Part shown: positions 2,335 through 8,300 of the stretch, piece by piece
How the letters are laid out: every line of letters starts with the position of its first letter
Position numbering within the stretch: position 1 is the stretch's first letter
Assembly (NCBI GenBank): GCA_003445095.1
Contig: DLVS01000791.1
Span: 1-11,882 of the forward strand
Length of the DNA: 11,882 nucleotides
Source of the DNA: Verrucomicrobiales bacterium
Lineage (GTDB): Bacteria; Verrucomicrobiota; Verrucomicrobiia; Limisphaerales; UBA9464
Direction of reading: 5' to 3'
Translations under genes and position numbers: made by a program
The notes under the pieces: model-generated
Databases searched by the model: none
What the model was told of the DNA's origin: nothing
The model's input: only the letters and a program-made list of their open reading frames with translations

Positions 2335-3081
2335 TCAATCGCCGAGATTTCGGTGCAGCAGTTCCCTCAGGCGGCCGGGCGCGGGAACGATGAAGGTATT
2401 CCCTTTCACTTCCAGCAGATGTTGACCTCGAAGCTTGGCGAGAGACCGCGAGAAGGTTTCACTCACGGTGCCTAACTCAGCCGCCAGGGTTCGCTTGGTC
2501 CCGCGCAACTCAATCGTCACCGGACCGGACTCTCCGGCCGGACAGCGTTTGATGAGCCAGTTGGCCAGCCGGGTCTCGACGTCTTTGAGAGTCAAGTCTT
2601 CCAACTGACTGACCACAACCCGCAAGTGGGCGCTCATGGAACCCAGAATTCGTAGGGCGATCTCGGGATGGCGTTTCAGCAAATCGACGAAGCCGCTTTT
2701 CTGGATCTGGAGCACCTGCGACGCTTCCACGGCCCGAGCGTCCGCCGGATATCCGCGCTCGGTGGCGAGTGCGGCTTCGGCGAACGTTTCGCCGGCACGG
2801 AAGACGTGGATGACTTGTTCCTTTCCGGCAGCATTGACTCGGTGGACGTTGATGGCGCCCTTTTGCACCAGATAAAACCCGGTCGCCGGTTCGCCTTCGT
2901 GAAACAGGTATTCGCCTTTGGTCAGCGTGCGGACGGTTACCAAGTTGGCCACGGCTTGCAGGTCTTCGGTACGTAATCCCGCAAAAAGTTGGCAACTGCG
3001 CAGCGTCGACATCAACGCGGCGAGACGAAGATCGGACAAGGGATTGGGCACGGGGAAAGTTTGACCATCCCGGAGTGCCAT
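2335..3081 (-). CDS. dnr: CRP/FNR-family transcription regulator, DNR type
   Basis: 248-aa regulator with an N-terminal cyclic-nucleotide-binding-like beta-roll and a C-terminal winged helix. Effector-domain landmarks are GEPATGFYLVQKGAINVHR (63-81) and GETFAEAAL (97-105), which recall Pseudomonas DNR, a heme-dependent NO sensor. The dimer helix is near 150-175. The recognition helix at 205-217 contains Glu208, Ser211 and Arg212 (ExxSR), the FNR/DNR signature for TTGA-type half-sites. Only Cys30 and Cys180 are present, so an FNR-type 4Fe-4S cluster is unlikely. Sites of the expected form lie at 3435-3448, 4486-4499 and, weaker, 4575-4588. The ATG at 3081 lacks a clear Shine-Dalgarno, and an internal ATG at 3012 would give 225 aa, close to DNR length, so the start is uncertain. 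It lies 55 bp downstream of the DUF2249 gene and is probably co-transcribed with it. NO sensing is inferred from similarity and context. Confidence 0.85.
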   Translation of the reverse strand: MALRDGQTFPVPNPLSDLRLAALMSTLRSCQLFAGLRTEDLQAVANLVTVRTLTKGEYLFHEGEPATGFYLVQKGAINVHRVNAAGKEQVIHVFRAGETFAEAALATERGYPADARAVEASQVLQIQKSGFVDLLKRHPEIALRILGSMSAHLRVVVSQLEDLTLKDVETRLANWLIKRCPAGESGPVTIELRGTKRTLAAELGTVSETFSRSLAKLRGQHLLEVKGNTFIVPAPGRLRELLHRNLGD

Positions 3082-3102: not shown

Positions 3103-3146
3103 GGAGGAACCGGGGACACGTTCCCCAATTCGCCGATCATTCCTCC
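3103..3146. repeat. Nested inverted repeat between DUF2249 and regulator genes
   Basis: Outer arms GGAGGAA (3103-3109) and TTCCTCC (3140-3146) enclose inner arms GGGGA (3112-3116) and TCCCC (3122-3126). The outer right arm overlaps the last codons of DUF2249, so a hairpin would form at its mRNA end and span most of the 55-bp gap to the regulator. It may set the relative amounts of the two proteins. There is no T-run, so it is not a classic terminator. Confidence 0.4.
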
Positions 3147-3376
3147 CGCCAAAAATACACGATCCAGTCGCCGCCTTGTCCGGGCTCAAAACGGCACCGG
3201 AATCCTTCCCCGCCGAGCAACTCAATGAGTGGCGCCGGCAAAAACGGCGCGACCAATAACAACCCCTCGTTCGACGCCAATTGGGCAACGCGAGCTCGAA
3301 TGCGAGCCAGCGGTTCTTCGCCCCGGGCGATGAGCGGCCGGACGTCGAATCGTTTGAAGGCGGTAAGCGGAGGCAT
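3137..3376 (-). CDS. DUF2249 domain protein
   Basis: Small soluble protein of 79 aa filling one DUF2249 domain: FDVRPLIARGEEPLARI near residues 10-26, a central LLLVAPFLPAPLIELL segment, then GFRCRFEP and a C-terminal strand GGDWIVYFWREE. The fold is SirA/TusA-like. Members often lie beside denitrification and NO-response genes, but no biochemical activity is established that I can name. The ATG at 3376 was chosen because the domain starts directly after it and because the longer frame's TTG (3448) is part of a regulator box. No good Shine-Dalgarno is visible. It is first in a minus-strand series with the DNR-type regulator and is divergent from the cupin gene across a shared box centred 65 bp upstream of this start. 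Confidence 0.75.
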   Translation of the reverse strand: MPPLTAFKRFDVRPLIARGEEPLARIRARVAQLASNEGLLLVAPFLPAPLIELLGGEGFRCRFEPGQGGDWIVYFWREE

Positions 3377-3434
3377 CGGACAGGGATATGTTCTCGGTCG
3401 CGGAGGCTCGGGACAACTGGCATTCGTCAATCCT

Positions 3435-3448
3435 TTGATCGATGTCAA
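3435..3448. promoter_or_regulatory. DNR/FNR-type box between DUF2249 and cupin genes
   Basis: TTGATCGATGTCAA fits TTGAY-N4-RTCAA exactly (TTGAT, CGAT, GTCAA), the form used by DNR/NNR/ANR regulators. It lies between divergent genes, so it can serve both. On the plus side a class II activator centred at -41.5 puts +1 at 3483, the A of the cupin ATG, and the -10 window 3471-3476 reads CACAAT (4 of 6 matches to TATAAT). On the minus side the same geometry gives +1 near 3400 and a leader of about 24 nt before the DUF2249 ATG, although no good -10 is seen there. Binding by the nearby regulator is inferred. Confidence 0.75.
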
Positions 3449-3482
3449 ACGTCACTCCGGCGGGAGCAGGCACAATTGCACC

Positions 3483-3839
3483 ATGTCGGAACCACAATCC
3501 TCCTCGGCGCACCCTCTCGTTTTCCACGCGCCAGCTCACTCACCAGCCGCCCGAGCGATCATTAGTCGAGCGGAGCTGACGACACCTAACGCGCGGCTCG
3601 TCTCGTTCGCGTTCGGCGAAGAGGCGGAGTTGTCCGAACACACCGCGGCTCGGCCGGCCCTGGTCCATATTGTGCGGGGCGAATGTGAATTTCGACTTGG
3701 CCACGAGACTCACCATCTCCAGGCCGGGGATGTAGTCTGGATGCCGCCGGGAACGCCGCATGCCCTGCACGCTCGCGGACCGTTTATGATGTGGTTGATA
3801 TTGCTCGCGAACGAGGGTCCAGGGCTGCCCCACGCTTAA
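3483..3839 (+). CDS. Small single-domain cupin protein
   Basis: 118-aa protein with one cupin barrel. Cupin motif 2 is clear: GDVVWMPPGTPHALH (G-x5-P-x-G-x2-H, about residues 80-94). Motif 1 is degenerate: it has one His in the segment LSEHTAARPALVHIVRG and lacks the usual HxH pair, so metal binding may be reduced or altered. No signal peptide is seen, so it is probably cytoplasmic. Small cupins of this kind recur beside nitrogen-oxide regulators, but the role is not established. The ATG at 3483 has no Shine-Dalgarno at normal spacing (the nearest, GGAG, ends 16 nt upstream), which fits the leaderless transcript predicted from the box at 3435-3448. It converges on the GYD gene. Confidence 0.75.
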   Translation: MSEPQSSSAHPLVFHAPAHSPAARAIISRAELTTPNARLVSFAFGEEAELSEHTAARPALVHIVRGECEFRLGHETHHLQAGDVVWMPPGTPHALHARGPFMMWLILLANEGPGLPHA

Positions 3840-4044
3840 CCATTCTACGTCCACGCAATTATCAATTCGGTACCGAACATCCGGGAGGCTTCCGCCGACA
3901 ATATGTCGAGGCAGGCCCCTCGCGTTAGGAAGTGCGGATGGCACGCGGCGAGTTTCCGGACCCGGGCTTACATCCGGCTCATGGCGCTCTTCCTCCGGCA
4001 GCCTCGGTCGAGTCCTCGCTAGGAACGCCTGCGGACCCCTGACC
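3840..4044. other. Spacer between convergent cupin and GYD genes
   Basis: 205 bp between two converging genes. I see no convincing coding frame, no hairpin followed by a T-run, and no TTGA-type box. A bidirectional terminator would be expected here but none is recognisable. Confidence 0.4.
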
Positions 4045-4341
4045 TCACACCCGCTTCTTGGAGACGTTAGCTTCCATCTCTTCGGCCGTAAAAGCCTGGG
4101 AAGTGCTCGTGCGGACGTAACCGGCCGACACCAAATCTCTCAAGCATTGTCGCACCGGGCCGGCCGAATCCGCCCGAAGAACCAAGAGCCCATCGTGGTC
4201 GCCGAGCAGCCAATACTGACCCTCAACATGAACACCGGCACGTTCGGCCGCTTGGGCGAACGCCCGGGCGCGGGTCGTCGATTTGTGAATCGCGCTCGCG
4301 CCTTTGTCGGTAAACCGGATGAGACTAATGTAGGTAGGCAT
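4045..4341 (-). CDS. GYD-domain protein
   Basis: 98-aa soluble protein matching the small GYD family (ferredoxin-like alpha/beta fold). It starts MPTYISLIRFTDKG, continues with a helix RARAFAQAAERAGV, then YWLLGDHDGLLVL, where GDHD replaces the family's G-x-YD, and ends VRTSTSQAFTAEEME, the usual C-terminus. The molecular function of the family is not known. The ATG at 4341 was chosen because it puts the conserved MPTYISL at the N-terminus and gives the normal length. An upstream ATG at 4434 would add 31 basic residues without family character. It is transcribed away from nirK, with the box at 4486-4499 between the two genes, so it may belong to the same regulon. Confidence 0.8.
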   Translation of the reverse strand: MPTYISLIRFTDKGASAIHKSTTRARAFAQAAERAGVHVEGQYWLLGDHDGLLVLRADSAGPVRQCLRDLVSAGYVRTSTSQAFTAEEMEANVSKKRV

Positions 4342-4485
4342 AACAATGGTGGACGAGTGTTCTAGGAAATGCCGAAGAACACGTTGCCTACGTCCGCGGC
4401 CCTTCTGAACAGTCCCTCGAGCGCGGCCGGACATAAGCGCAGGTTCATTCCGCGTGTTTGATCGGTGAAACTCACCGGCCTAGCC

Positions 4486-4499
4486 TTGACCACGGTCAA
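4486..4499. promoter_or_regulatory. DNR/FNR-type box, distal nirK/GYD site
   Basis: TTGACCACGGTCAA fits TTGAY-N4-RTCAA exactly and is a perfect 6-2-6 palindrome (TTGACC, AC, GGTCAA). Its centre is about 166 bp from the nirK ATG and 151 bp from the GYD ATG. A class II promoter from this site would start near 4534 toward nirK or near 4451 toward GYD, each with a leader above 100 nt. No convincing -10 was found at either. It could also act as an upstream site together with the proximal box. Confidence 0.65.
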
Positions 4500-4574
4500 A
4501 GCTTTCGTCGCAGCGAGAGGGCCGGTCGACCTCGAGAGCGGGTAGTCGGAATCGTCAGCGGACTTGGCAGAAAC

Positions 4575-4588
4575 GTGACCTGAGTCAA
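4575..4588. promoter_or_regulatory. Imperfect DNR/FNR-type box, proximal nirK site
   Basis: GTGACCTGAGTCAA has the right half-site GTCAA intact and one mismatch (G for T) in the left half-site. A class II activator here places nirK +1 at about 4623, giving a 36-nt leader. The -10 window 4611-4616 reads GAGAGT (3 of 6 matches), so support is modest. Its centre is 89 bp from the distal box. Confidence 0.5.
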
Positions 4589-4623
4589 AGCGGGGCATTG
4601 ATTCGATGATGAGAGTTTCGGCG

Positions 4624-4658: not shown

Positions 4659-6185
4659 ATGAAAACTCTCCGTCTTAGCTATCGCGAGGTTTGCTTGGTC
4701 TTAGCCAGTGCGTTTCTCGCATCGCAGCTCTTCGCCGCTGAGGGCCCAACGTCTTTGGGAGAACCCAAGGGACCCGACACGAAGGGAATTGATCCCGCGC
4801 TGCGCGGCGAGGAACGGGCGATTCTTACCGCCGCCCCCAACGTGCCCCCACCCATTACTCGCAAGCATCCCACCAAAGTCATCGTCGACCTCGAGGTGAA
4901 AGAGGTGGTGAAAAAACTCGCGGATGGAGTCGAATATCTGTTCTGGACCTTCGGCGGTGAAGTGCCGGGCCTATTCATCCGCGTGCGCGAGGGAGACCTG
5001 GTGGAATTTCATCTGAAAAATCATCCCGACAGCAAGATGCCTCATAACATTGATCTGCATGCGGTCACCGGACCCGGCGGTGGGGCCGCTAGTTCGTTTA
5101 CCGCGCCCGGGCACGAATCCCAATTCTCCTTCAAGGCCATGAACCCTGGGCTCTACATTTATCACTGCGCCACCGCTCCCGTCGGCATGCACGTCGCCAA
5201 TGGCATGTATGGACTGATCTTAGTCGAGCCGAAAGAAGGACTGCTACCCGTGGATCGCGAATTCTATGTTTGCCAAGGTGATTTCTACACCGCTGGCAAA
5301 TTCGGCGAAGAAGGACTGCAGCCATTCGACCAAGACAAAGCGGTGAACGAGCAACCCTCTTATGTCGTGTTCAATGGAGCGGTTAACTCATTGGTGGGCG
5401 ACAACGCGATGCGGGCCAAGGTCGGTGAGCGAGTTCGCATCTTCTTTGGCAACGGGGGACCAAACCTCGTTTCGTCGTTCCACGTCATTGGTGAAATTTT
5501 TGACCGAGTCTATACGGAAGGCGGGGTCTTGGGGAACCAACGGCATGTGCAAACGACCCTCGTTCCCGCGGGCGGCTCCGCGATCGTCGAATTCGGATTA
5601 GAGGTGCCCGGAACATTCATCTTGGTGGATCACTCCTTGTTTAGAGCCTTCAACAAAGGCGCCCTGGGAATGCTCAAAGTCGAGGGCCCCGAAGACTTGT
5701 TGGTGTACTCCGGCAAGGAAGTGGACGCCGTTTACCTCGGCTCGCAGGCCGATGCGGGTGCGGGCAGCCAAAGGAAGGTGGCGGAGCTCCAAGCCCAAGT
5801 GAAGCAGGCCATCGCTGACAATCCTAAGATCGCCAGCCTGACCAAGGAAGTGCAGATCGAAAAGGGCAAACGCGTGTATATGCAAACTTGCTTTGCTTGT
5901 CATCAACCCACCGGGCTCGGCCTGCCGGGCGTCTTTCCGCCGTTGGCCAAGTCCGATTTTCTGCTCGCTGACAAGGATCGATCCATTCGCAGTGTCGTGA
6001 AAGGGCTGTCAGGTCCGATCACGGTCAATGGCAAGACCTTCAATGGTGTGATGCCACCCGTGGCCTTAAACGATGAACAAGTCGCTAACGTATTGACGTA
6101 CGTCCGCAATTCCTGGGGCAACAGCGGCGACCCAGTGCGCGTCGACGACGTTCGCCGAGTCCGAGCTGACGTCGCTCAACATTAG
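4659..6185 (+). CDS. nirK: Copper nitrite reductase with C-terminal cytochrome c domain
   Basis: 508-aa periplasmic enzyme reducing nitrite to nitric oxide. Residues 1-26 are a signal peptide ending LFA-A. Two cupredoxin domains follow. The first has HNIDLH (129-134: His129 type 1 Cu ligand, Asp132 catalytic, His134 type 2), YHC (168-170: His169 type 2, Cys170 type 1) and VGMHVANGM (175-183: His178 and Met183 type 1). The second has SSFHVIG with catalytic His275 and [16 protein letters not shown] with His325, the remaining type 2 ligand. All expected copper and proton-relay residues are present, and the short [11 protein letters not shown] loop is of the AniA type. A c-type cytochrome follows: CFACH at 411-415 and probable axial Met465 in GVMPP. 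The fused heme likely feeds electrons to the type 1 copper. nirV and sco lie downstream; two boxes and a palindrome precede it. Confidence 0.97.
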
Positions 6186-6261: not shown

Positions 6262-7128
6262 ATGAATCTGACGAAGGTAATGGGGGCCTTAGGATCGATG
6301 ATCATCGCTTTAGGTGCGCTGGCTGCCGAAGCCACCTCGCTCCCCAGCGGAATGTTGGCCGTTCCGGCGGGCGTCTATCGGCCGCTTTTCCGCGGTCCGG
6401 AAGACCTCAAAGAAGTCCCGGTAGCTGCCTTCCTCGTCAGCGATGCTCCGGTCACGAACGGTGAATTCCTCGAGTTCGTTCGCGCCAATCCCCAATGGCG
6501 CCGGTCCCGAGTCAAGAGGTTGTTTGCCGATGTCGGCTACCTTCGGCACTGGGCGGGAGACGTTGAACTCGGGCCGGACGCCGCTGAGCTTGCTCGACAA
6601 CCCGTGGTGAATGTCTCGTGGTTTGCGGCGAAGTCATACGCATCCTGGCGCGGCCAGCGCTTGCCGACGACGGCCGAATGGGAACTGATTGCCGCGGCTG
6701 GCTTCAGCCGGCCTGATGGCACGAACGACGTGGAATTTTGCCGCGCCTTGACCCGGTGGTATTCCACACCAACTCCGACACGGTTGCCCGCCGTGCGTTC
6801 CGGACTCGCCAACTTCCACGGTGTCCACGATCTGCACGGCCTCATCTGGGAATGGACCAGTGACTTCAATTCCTCGCTGGTGACGGGTGACGCCCGGGGT
6901 GACAATGGTCTCGAACGCCAACTATTTTGCGGCGCCGGATCGCTGGGCACTAATGACCGCGCCAACTTTCCCGCGTTCATGCGAGCCGGTTTCCGTAGCT
7001 CCCTCAAAGCGGATTACACCGTCCACAATCTCGGGTTCCGGTGTGCCGCTGACCGGCCAGCTTCGGAAAGCGCTGTTGCCCCGACCCAGACGAGCCCGCA
7101 GCCCACCTCCAGCCCAATACCTCCATGA
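6262..7128 (+). CDS. nirV: NirV-like protein, SUMF1/FGE-sulfatase fold
   Basis: 288-aa exported protein with a signal peptide (MNLTKVMGALGSMIIALGALAAEA) and a formylglycine-generating-enzyme-type domain. Landmarks are VPAG (34-37), APVTNGEFLEFV (62-73), VVNVSWFAAKSYASWRGQRLPTTAEW (115-140), GVHDLHGLIWEWTSD (187-201) and the terminal NLGFRCA (256-262). The stretch where FGE has its catalytic GGS-x-C reads CGAGSLGTND, so the cysteine is missing and true FGE activity is unlikely. Genes of this type (NirV) commonly follow nirK, but their role is unsettled. A 20-residue Pro/Ser/Thr-rich tail ends the protein. The ATG at 6262 was preferred over a TTG at 6244 because it begins a clean signal peptide. 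It overlaps sco by ATGA, and 76 bp separate it from nirK. Confidence 0.88.
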   Translation: MNLTKVMGALGSMIIALGALAAEATSLPSGMLAVPAGVYRPLFRGPEDLKEVPVAAFLVSDAPVTNGEFLEFVRANPQWRRSRVKRLFADVGYLRHWAGDVELGPDAAELARQPVVNVSWFAAKSYASWRGQRLPTTAEWELIAAAGFSRPDGTNDVEFCRALTRWYSTPTPTRLPAVRSGLANFHGVHDLHGLIWEWTSDFNSSLVTGDARGDNGLERQLFCGAGSLGTNDRANFPAFMRAGFRSSLKADYTVHNLGFRCAADRPASESAVAPTQTSPQPTSSPIPP

Positions 7129-7730
7129 TTTCCCGCGTTTTGATCCCCATCTTCAGTCTGATATCGCTATGGACGTTTGCTGCCGATGCGCCAGTTCGGC
7201 CCCCGTGCTGCCGCTCGCTCCCCGGGGGTCAACCCGCCGAGAGCTCGCTTTACCAGCTCGAGTCCGTCTGGACTTCCGATGTGGGAACGCGGACCCGGCT
7301 CGGCGTGTTTCGGGGGCGCCCGCAAATAGTCGCGCTATTCTTCACCCACTGTGAGTACGCGTGTCCAATCCTGGTCAGCGAGCTGAAACGACTAGAGCAG
7401 GCGTTGCCCGCCGACCTGCGAGAGCGGGTCGATTTTCTGCTGATCTCCTTTGATTCCGCTCGGGACACTCCGGCCCAGCTCGCCGACTACCGACGAGTTC
7501 ATGAGCTTGACCTGGCGCATTGGAGTCTGCTGCGAGGCGAAGTAGATGATGTTCGTGAACTGGCCGCACTGTTGGGAGTCAACTATCGAGCGGACGCCCG
7601 TGGGCAGTTTGCTCATTCGAATGTGATCACGGTCTTGGATGCCGAAGGAAGCATCGCGCGTCAATTCACTGGCCTCAAACTTCCGGTGGACGATGTCATC
7701 AAAGTTCTCTCCGGGCCGAAGAAGCCTTAG
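7125..7730 (+). CDS. SCO1/SenC/PrrC-family copper chaperone
   Basis: 201-aa thioredoxin-fold protein with an N-terminal signal or anchor (residues 1-20). The copper site is complete: C-x3-C at Cys76 and Cys80 in FFTHCEYACP and the distal His164 in QFAHSNVITVLD. Strands around VDFLLISFDSARDTP (102-116) are typical of SCO. An extra Cys28-Cys29 pair follows the signal segment (PPCCRSLPGG) and may give a second metal or disulphide site. SCO proteins insert copper into cytochrome oxidase CuA or act as periplasmic thiol reductases. Here, joined to nirV by an ATGA overlap and behind nirK, copper loading of NirK is the natural inference. No separate Shine-Dalgarno is seen, which fits translational coupling. 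Confidence 0.9.
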   Translation: MISRVLIPIFSLISLWTFAADAPVRPPCCRSLPGGQPAESSLYQLESVWTSDVGTRTRLGVFRGRPQIVALFFTHCEYACPILVSELKRLEQALPADLRERVDFLLISFDSARDTPAQLADYRRVHELDLAHWSLLRGEVDDVRELAALLGVNYRADARGQFAHSNVITVLDAEGSIARQFTGLKLPVDDVIKVLSGPKKP

Positions 7731-7964: not shown

Positions 7965-8300
7965 ATGATTGGAACCCAGAGCACGCTTCGCCGGCGACGA
8001 ACGCCGCCTTCGGTCGGAGTCCGCCTTGACCAGGGGCAGCTCGCCATGATCGGAGGCGCGGATGATCAGGGCTGGTCCCGATCGTGGCTTGGCAAGCTTG
8101 GGAATTGGCTGCGGGGTGCCAGTGCGCCGGCCGAAGAGAGGGTCTTTACGGAAGGATTCCTCGTTGGAACGGCTGCGAGAGCGTATTTAGGCGAGTTTCT
8201 CAGTGAATGGCGTTCGGGTTTGACCGGTCGAAAGCGGCAACTTTCTCGAATCGCCAGCAAATTCAGGAAACTTTTTGACCGATTGATGGCGGGGCTTTAA
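7965..8300 (+). CDS. Possible small hypothetical protein
   Basis: Open frame of 111 codons ending 45 bp before tolQ. I do not recognise the product. It is Arg-rich at the start (TLRRRRTPPSVGVRLDQG), has a Trp-rich middle (GWSRSWLGKLGNWLRG, residues 36-51) and an amphipathic basic C-terminal half (FLSEWRSGLTGRKRQLSRIASKFRKLFDRLM). No signal peptide or membrane segment is evident. GGGG lies about 9 nt before the ATG at 7965, and an internal ATG at 8046 is possible. Third codon positions are less GC-biased than in tolQ, and no domain supports it, so it may be a chance frame or a decayed gene. The dyad at 8304-8327 just after its stop could be its transcript end. Confidence 0.3.
   Translation: MIGTQSTLRRRRTPPSVGVRLDQGQLAMIGGADDQGWSRSWLGKLGNWLRGASAPAEERVFTEGFLVGTAARAYLGEFLSEWRSGLTGRKRQLSRIASKFRKLFDRLMAGL

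Follow-up and report, generated by a model that had tools for sequence, protein, structure and literature searches.

DNR-type boxes beside nirK in a Verrucomicrobiales bacterium suggest a CRP/FNR regulon with a predicted leaderless cupin mRNA

Which genes near a nitrite reductase gene might a DNR-type regulator control, and from what kind of promoter? The question was raised by a stretch of 11,882 nucleotides from a Verrucomicrobiales bacterium (the window), in which genes were named by Pfam and NCBIfam. A sequence-only reading of this DNA had proposed that shared boxes tie the genes for a DUF2249 protein, a regulator, a cupin, a GYD-domain protein and nirK into one local regulon, and that the proteins of unclear function are accessory to nitrite reduction or NO stress.

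The motif TTGAY-N4-RTCAA was found exactly twice in the window, at 3435-3448 (TTGATCGATGTCAA) and 4486-4499 (TTGACCACGGTCAA), neither site being assigned a strand. This agrees with the earlier count, and the chance expectation of 0.05 given with it was about right, since dinucleotide shuffles yielded a mean of 0.04 and two exact sites were reached in 0 of 200 shuffles. The first box lies between the DUF2249 gene on the minus strand and the cupin gene on the plus strand. Measured from the middle of this box, the cupin ATG (its A) is 41.5 nt away and the ATG of DUF2249 65.5 nt. The second lies between the GYD gene (minus) and nirK (plus), and the placement of both boxes between divergent genes holds if the starts at 3376, 3483, 4341 and 4659 are correct. 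The one-mismatch site listed at 4575-4588 on the plus strand is present (GTGACCTGAGTCAA), and an additional one, absent from that list, lies inside nirK at 5893-5906. Boxes with up to one mismatch number 4 in the window versus 0.96 expected, a count reached by 2 of 200 shuffles, so the 4575 site is weak by count alone and its support comes from its position and from relatives.

The candidate binder of these boxes is a DNR-like CRP/FNR regulator encoded at 2335-3081 on the minus strand. Its cNMP-binding domain (PF00027) and Crp-type helix-turn-helix (PF13545) both score over their cut-offs, and it reaches no NCBIfam cut-off. The DNR structure 3dkw is its third PDB match (88 bits, E 5.4e-24), behind two entries of an uncharacterised cyclic nucleotide-binding protein (95 bits). 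The recognition helix ETFSR is identical in the alignment with DNR, and its E, S and R are invariant in 11 relatives, which bears out the ExxSR regulator assigned to this gene before. The N-terminal cysteine cluster of FNR (4Fe-4S) was not found on inspection by eye of the translation, which has only two cysteines, at residues 29 and 180. From its family, N-oxides or low oxygen would be expected as the effector.

The cupin gene (3483-3839, plus strand) encodes 118 aa with a Cupin_2 domain and, in a predicted model, the double-stranded beta-barrel fold, which places the protein in the cupin superfamily. With seven relatives as queries and E up to 1e-12, the cupin was found in 49 of 146 genomes of the order to which the genome of the related locus L002 belongs. 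An exact box stands just upstream of the gene in 26 of 30 fetched loci of the order, among which L183 and L201 are L007 and L002 found again. These 30 loci, 94,724 bp in all, hold 33 exact boxes versus 0 matches of the reversed pattern; their fetched 1.5 kb flanks contain nirK in only 2 cases and the regulator in 6. By such counts, the cupin is the best conserved predicted target of the box.

The distance from box to start codon is conserved as well. When every in-frame ATG or GTG between box and domain was counted without selection, a start codon 40.5-42.5 nt from the box centre was found in 24 of the 26 boxed loci (22 ATG, 2 GTG). The N terminus encoded from these codons mostly begins M-S/N-E-Q/K-P-L, a conservation that supports the starts. 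In 21 of the 26 loci the start is preceded, at 12 to 7 nt, by a hexamer of the form xAnnnT, with A second and T sixth. GGC often follows the box, and no column between GGC and the hexamer reaches 60% among 28 promoters; spacing is therefore kept, and sequence is not. The window has the spacing exactly, with the box at 3435-3448, the putative -10-like hexamer CACAAT at 3471-3476 on the plus strand and the ATG at 3483, 41.5 nt from the box centre. At an Opitutae locus (L020), where the cupin gene diverges from nirK, TAAGGT and then an ATG come after the box in matching positions. Weaker homologues fit more poorly: 22 were added, an exact box was present in 12 of the 20 with sufficient upstream sequence, and the start lay at 40.5-42.5 nt in 5 of these 12 and at 43.5 nt in two.

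At class II FNR and CRP promoters, the activator site is centred at -41.5 and the -10 element spans about -12 to -7. The spacing of box and hexamer at cupin and nirK agrees with this arrangement, the +1 itself being predicted. Since this geometry puts +1 on the cupin start codon, we infer that the cupin mRNA is leaderless, with transcription starting on the first codon. As for leaderless use in general in the related genomes, 151 called ATG starts had 3 TAnnnT hexamers at -12, no more than at some other offsets, although crude start calls make this a weak test.

nirK (4659-6185, plus strand) encodes a copper nitrite reductase with a C-terminal cytochrome c domain, named by Pfam and by TIGR02376 (365 bits versus a cut-off of 296). 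Relatives were profiled from the best 80 loci of a contig search with the NirK protein, in which more loci matched; the top loci are from Verrucomicrobiota, and the best identity among these 80 is 85%. With one of the 80 set aside for short upstream sequence, 28 of 79 relatives were found to have an exact box in the 350 bp ahead of nirK, and the other 51 to have none there. The upstream regions hold 29 boxes, where base shuffling predicts 0.125 and the reversed pattern gives 0; their density there is 1.05 per kb, compared with 0.028 per kb elsewhere in these loci, and the spacers of the boxes vary between loci. Among the 146 genomes, a box precedes 9 of 30 fetched nirK matches (reversed pattern 0), a count that includes L002 and L007 again and two loci (L270, L271) read in the wrong frame. 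A lack of conservation in relatives had been named as grounds for abandoning the idea of a regulon; conservation was found before both nirK (28/79) and cupin (26/30). The boxes beside nirK are real, evolutionarily conserved predicted sites for a regulator of the anaerobic or nitric-oxide type.

The position of the hexamer separates the two boxes before nirK. In 30 nirK boxes, 28 from relatives and two from the window, the commonest offset of TAnnnT, counted from the start of the box, is +36, with 10 cases; the next best offset has 3. The 4575 box has GAGAGT at this place (4611-4616, plus strand), a candidate -10-like hexamer, and the 4486 box has CCGGTC, which is not -10-like, at the class II offset in the direction of nirK. 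At L163, from another genome of the order, GYD is divergent from nirK with two boxes between them, and the one nearer nirK shares the first-base mismatch of 4575 and carries GAGTAT at +36. The positioned class II activator site of nirK is thus probably the one-mismatch 4575 box and not the exact 4486 box. Downstream on the plus strand, Pfam identifies an FGE-sulfatase-like protein (6262-7128), the next gene after nirK, and a SCO1/SenC protein (7125-7730). The FGE-like gene follows nirK in 74 of the best 80 related loci and the order nirK-FGE-SCO1 recurs in 67 of them, across several phyla as judged by record titles; the FGE-like protein may be a maturation partner of the NirK type found here. 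A 111-codon open frame after SCO1, at 7965-8300, has no Pfam or NCBIfam match.

The other arms of the proposed regulon were found to be uneven. The GYD-domain protein (Pfam; 98 aa) is encoded at 4045-4341 on the minus strand. Inclusion of the whole GYD family was rejected, an exact box being present in only 4 of 29 loci, L002 and L007 found again among them. The nirK-linked GYD copies do have a conserved box, and in L007 the GYD frame opens 40.5-42.5 nt from a box. The DUF2249 protein (Pfam; 79 aa) is encoded at 3137-3376 on the minus strand, 55 bp from the regulator gene on the same strand, so an operon with DUF2249 as its first gene is probable. DUF2249 directly precedes the regulator gene in 15 of 30 loci. 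A script found a box within 350 bp of the regulator operon in 6 of 30; in one case the box falls within the DUF2249 frame. The DUF2249 start stands at 65.5 nt from the box in L002 as in the window, and no class II -10 hexamer towards it was seen in either. Because the regulator gene comes right after DUF2249 in the same direction, a DUF2249 arm would be autoregulatory. Next to the cupin, same-strand genes adjoin in 18 of 30 loci, and in 9 of these 18 the neighbour encodes DUF2249, with 6 members matching TusA. Some DUF2249 genes directly 3' of the cupin (L189, L190, L193, L194 and others) encode two DUF2249 domains, the second of which also matches TusA. The window's DUF2249 protein has a TusA-like fold in a predicted model. 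TusA sulfurtransferases use a catalytic cysteine; no conserved cysteine column was found across 13 DUF2249 rows, and TusA membership is not indicated.

A motif scan for denitrification-type genes had been suggested as a check, and four related genomes (G001 to G004) served as stand-ins. Exact sites number 14, 18, 10 and 12, versus 6, 6, 5 and 2 for the reversed pattern, giving totals of 54 and 19. By a simple codon-usage gene caller, 27 of the 54 sites are intergenic versus 1 of the 16 controls, out of 19, that have a locus (Fisher p 0.0014), and two further L007 sites between GYD and cupin were misplaced inside a called frame. From the flanking proteins closest to intergenic sites, thirty were selected and scanned for known families, ten of them also with NCBIfam. 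They include the RIC/YtfE Fe-S repair protein and NrfH, both over cut-offs, and also a NIT-domain chemoreceptor, several cytochromes c, a COX1-family protein and a MOSC protein; in two genomes a box adjoins the gene of an Alginate_exp porin. There are also products without visible link, such as a tRNA synthetase, LpxK and ribosomal protein L27. Frames of at least 80 codons that open 40.5-42.5 nt from a box in these relatives encode the porin (L003, L007), RIC (L118), GYD (L007), cupins (L002, L007) and some other products, and several such frames are probably chance ones. The porin (L003:761-2218 and L007:4389-5864) has a box centre 41.5 nt before its ATG, and it may be another leaderless target. 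No box was found within 350 bp before the nosZ match in nine start-side loci, six of which have enough upstream sequence and three only about 30 to 130 bp. For RIC, a box is clear in only two of 13 loci (L274, L280), 170 nt before the match; L275 has a possible third, in a doubtful frame, and in G003 a RIC ATG lies 41.5 nt from a box, at an uncertain start, other RIC genes starting later. The excess of sites speaks for the regulon; against the prediction, nosZ is without a box in the loci examined and RIC mostly so.

Co-occurrence was counted in the same 146 genomes, which are related and incomplete, so that p-values are optimistic. Cupin and regulator occur together in 43 genomes, of 49 with the cupin, versus 22.8 expected (p 5.6e-13), and cupin and nirK in 11 versus 10.7 expected. 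GYD and nirK coincide in 16 versus 6.1 expected (p 4.5e-6; 28 of the 29 GYD genomes used, one weak match dropped), and regulator and nirK in 20 versus 14.9 (p 0.047). By gene content the cupin tracks the regulator, not nirK, and GYD tracks nirK; hence the cupin is not an accessory of nitrite reduction in particular. Of the accessory role proposed earlier, the GYD part agrees with co-occurrence and the cupin part does not. The broader claim of a regulon is supported, with its weight moved from nirK to cupin: boxes are conserved before nirK, the cupin, the nirK-linked GYD copies and some DUF2249-dnr operons, but the 4486 box is off the class II position for nirK and most of the GYD family is without a box. 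An apparent rule that the box is absent where the regulator is absent fitted two genomes among the initial 30 cupin loci, and did not hold in the enlarged set of 50, where the box is present in 36 of 45 loci with a detected regulator and 2 of 5 without (p 0.08).

Several other explanations were weighed. The motif is also bound by FNR-type proteins that have these recognition residues. The boxes could then be served by another CRP/FNR-type protein encoded elsewhere, such as an oxygen-sensing FNR, the neighbouring regulator merely sharing the site or acting otherwise, and G056 and G116 do have a boxed cupin but no detected DNR-like gene, their assemblies being incomplete. Such a binder is nevertheless unlikely in view of the strong co-occurrence of cupin and regulator and the repeated linkage of regulator, DUF2249, cupin and nirK; that this regulator is itself FNR is opposed by the missing cysteine cluster. 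That the boxes are chance palindromes is scarcely credible, given the result of the shuffles and the conservation and fixed spacing in relatives, even if single sites are short and the mismatched 4575 site is weak by count.

The same geometry bears on two further possibilities. A box at -41.5 covers the -35 region, and its position would also permit the regulator to repress by blocking RNA polymerase. This is very improbable: relatives lack a conserved -35-like sequence between box and hexamer, as an activator-dependent promoter predicts, the class II offset recurs at nirK, and DNR activates nirK-type genes in other bacteria, according to the available text of PMC1274295. It is also quite unlikely that the cupin starts elsewhere and its mRNA has an ordinary leader. 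The -10 elements are predicted from sequence alone and a database frame opens at 3300, but upstream starts would place box and promoter within the gene, and N-terminal conservation begins right at the predicted codon. The database frame (P0001, a cupin of 179 aa, 3300-3839) runs through the 3435 box. Start conservation in relatives speaks against its start at 3300. A gene without a leader may be given a wrong start by gene callers.

The preferred reading, held at a probability of roughly three in four, is that the region is the core of a DNR-type CRP/FNR regulon with class II promoters, including a leaderless cupin and a nirK-FGE-SCO1 unit activated through the 4575 box. We infer that the regulator at 2335-3081 would bind TTGAY-N4-RTCAA and activate class II promoters in which the box is centred at -41.5 and a weak -10 element comes immediately ahead of +1. 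The box at 3435-3448 would set +1 on the A of the cupin ATG, giving an mRNA translated without a leader, in a geometry conserved across the order. The box at 4575-4588 would activate nirK-FGE-SCO1, whose leader would be about 36 nt long; the 4486 box farther upstream might assist, and GYD would be read divergently from nirK. The regulator gene, behind DUF2249 in the likely operon, would have a divergent promoter sharing the 3435 box, and thereby feedback.

Known systems can be compared, COG4309 being taken as the DUF2249 family. In the available text of PMC1274295, nirK and further denitrification genes in the DNR regulons of Proteobacteria are preceded by an FNR-like box with the consensus CTTGATnnnnATCAAG, and COG4309 is placed in NnrR, NsrR and DNR regulons. 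The box before nirK is shared; here, however, the phylum differs, a cupin whose start codon keeps a fixed distance from the box is the core target, and none was found before the nosZ genes examined. In the DrpA/DrpB system of Thermus thermophilus, expression of a DUF2249 protein needs the Dnr-type regulator DnrT in nitrate respiration, and DUF2249 is linked there to nitrate reductase, unlike in the window (PMC6282519, available part). All four DUF2249 genes of Haloferax mediterranei are induced in denitrification, two of them near nirK and nor, but these are archaeal, with a different promoter motif, CGAAYATDKTYG (from the accessible text of PMC11218638). A cupin-norB-nnrS2 operon of Sphingopyxis granuli TFA is tabled as induced, with values of 5 to 14 and 4 to 18 in two columns, in the part of PMC6472365 available; there, too, a cupin gene, perhaps of another family and with another promoter, goes together with NO-handling genes. 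A C-terminal heme domain on NirK has been described in Verrucomicrobia (PMC4770552), and some Verrucomicrobia are poor in Shine-Dalgarno pairing (PMC10783764), as far as the accessible portions of both papers go. A meta-regulon paper (PMC8510549) mentions neither cupin nor DUF2249 nor Verrucomicrobi. Among the matches listed in a literature search with subscription journals mostly outside its coverage, none was found on a cupin or GYD gene tied to a DNR box or on leaderless DNR targets. The window's promoters share the spacing of class II FNR/CRP promoters and differ in the predicted +1 on the start codon, which would give a leaderless mRNA. The new part is this transcription-start prediction; DUF2249 in such regulons is already published.

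The conserved spacing makes for a base-exact and cheaply testable prediction, that the 5' end of the cupin mRNA falls on its first codon. A regulon definition is also provided for uncultured nirK-bearing Verrucomicrobiota, and it can be searched for in metagenomes. As a tentative extension, which we hold to be somewhat doubtful, a DNR-type regulator might run several leaderless mRNAs (that of the cupin and, depending on the species, those of porin, Fe-S repair protein and GYD), coupling induction by N-oxides or low oxygen to leaderless translation, and the cupin with its DUF2249 partner might be a core part of the N-oxide response, independent of nirK. In conclusion, the small cupin and DUF2249, two families of unknown role with a proposed part in N-oxide metabolism, would be placed at the centre of the regulator's action and not at its edge.
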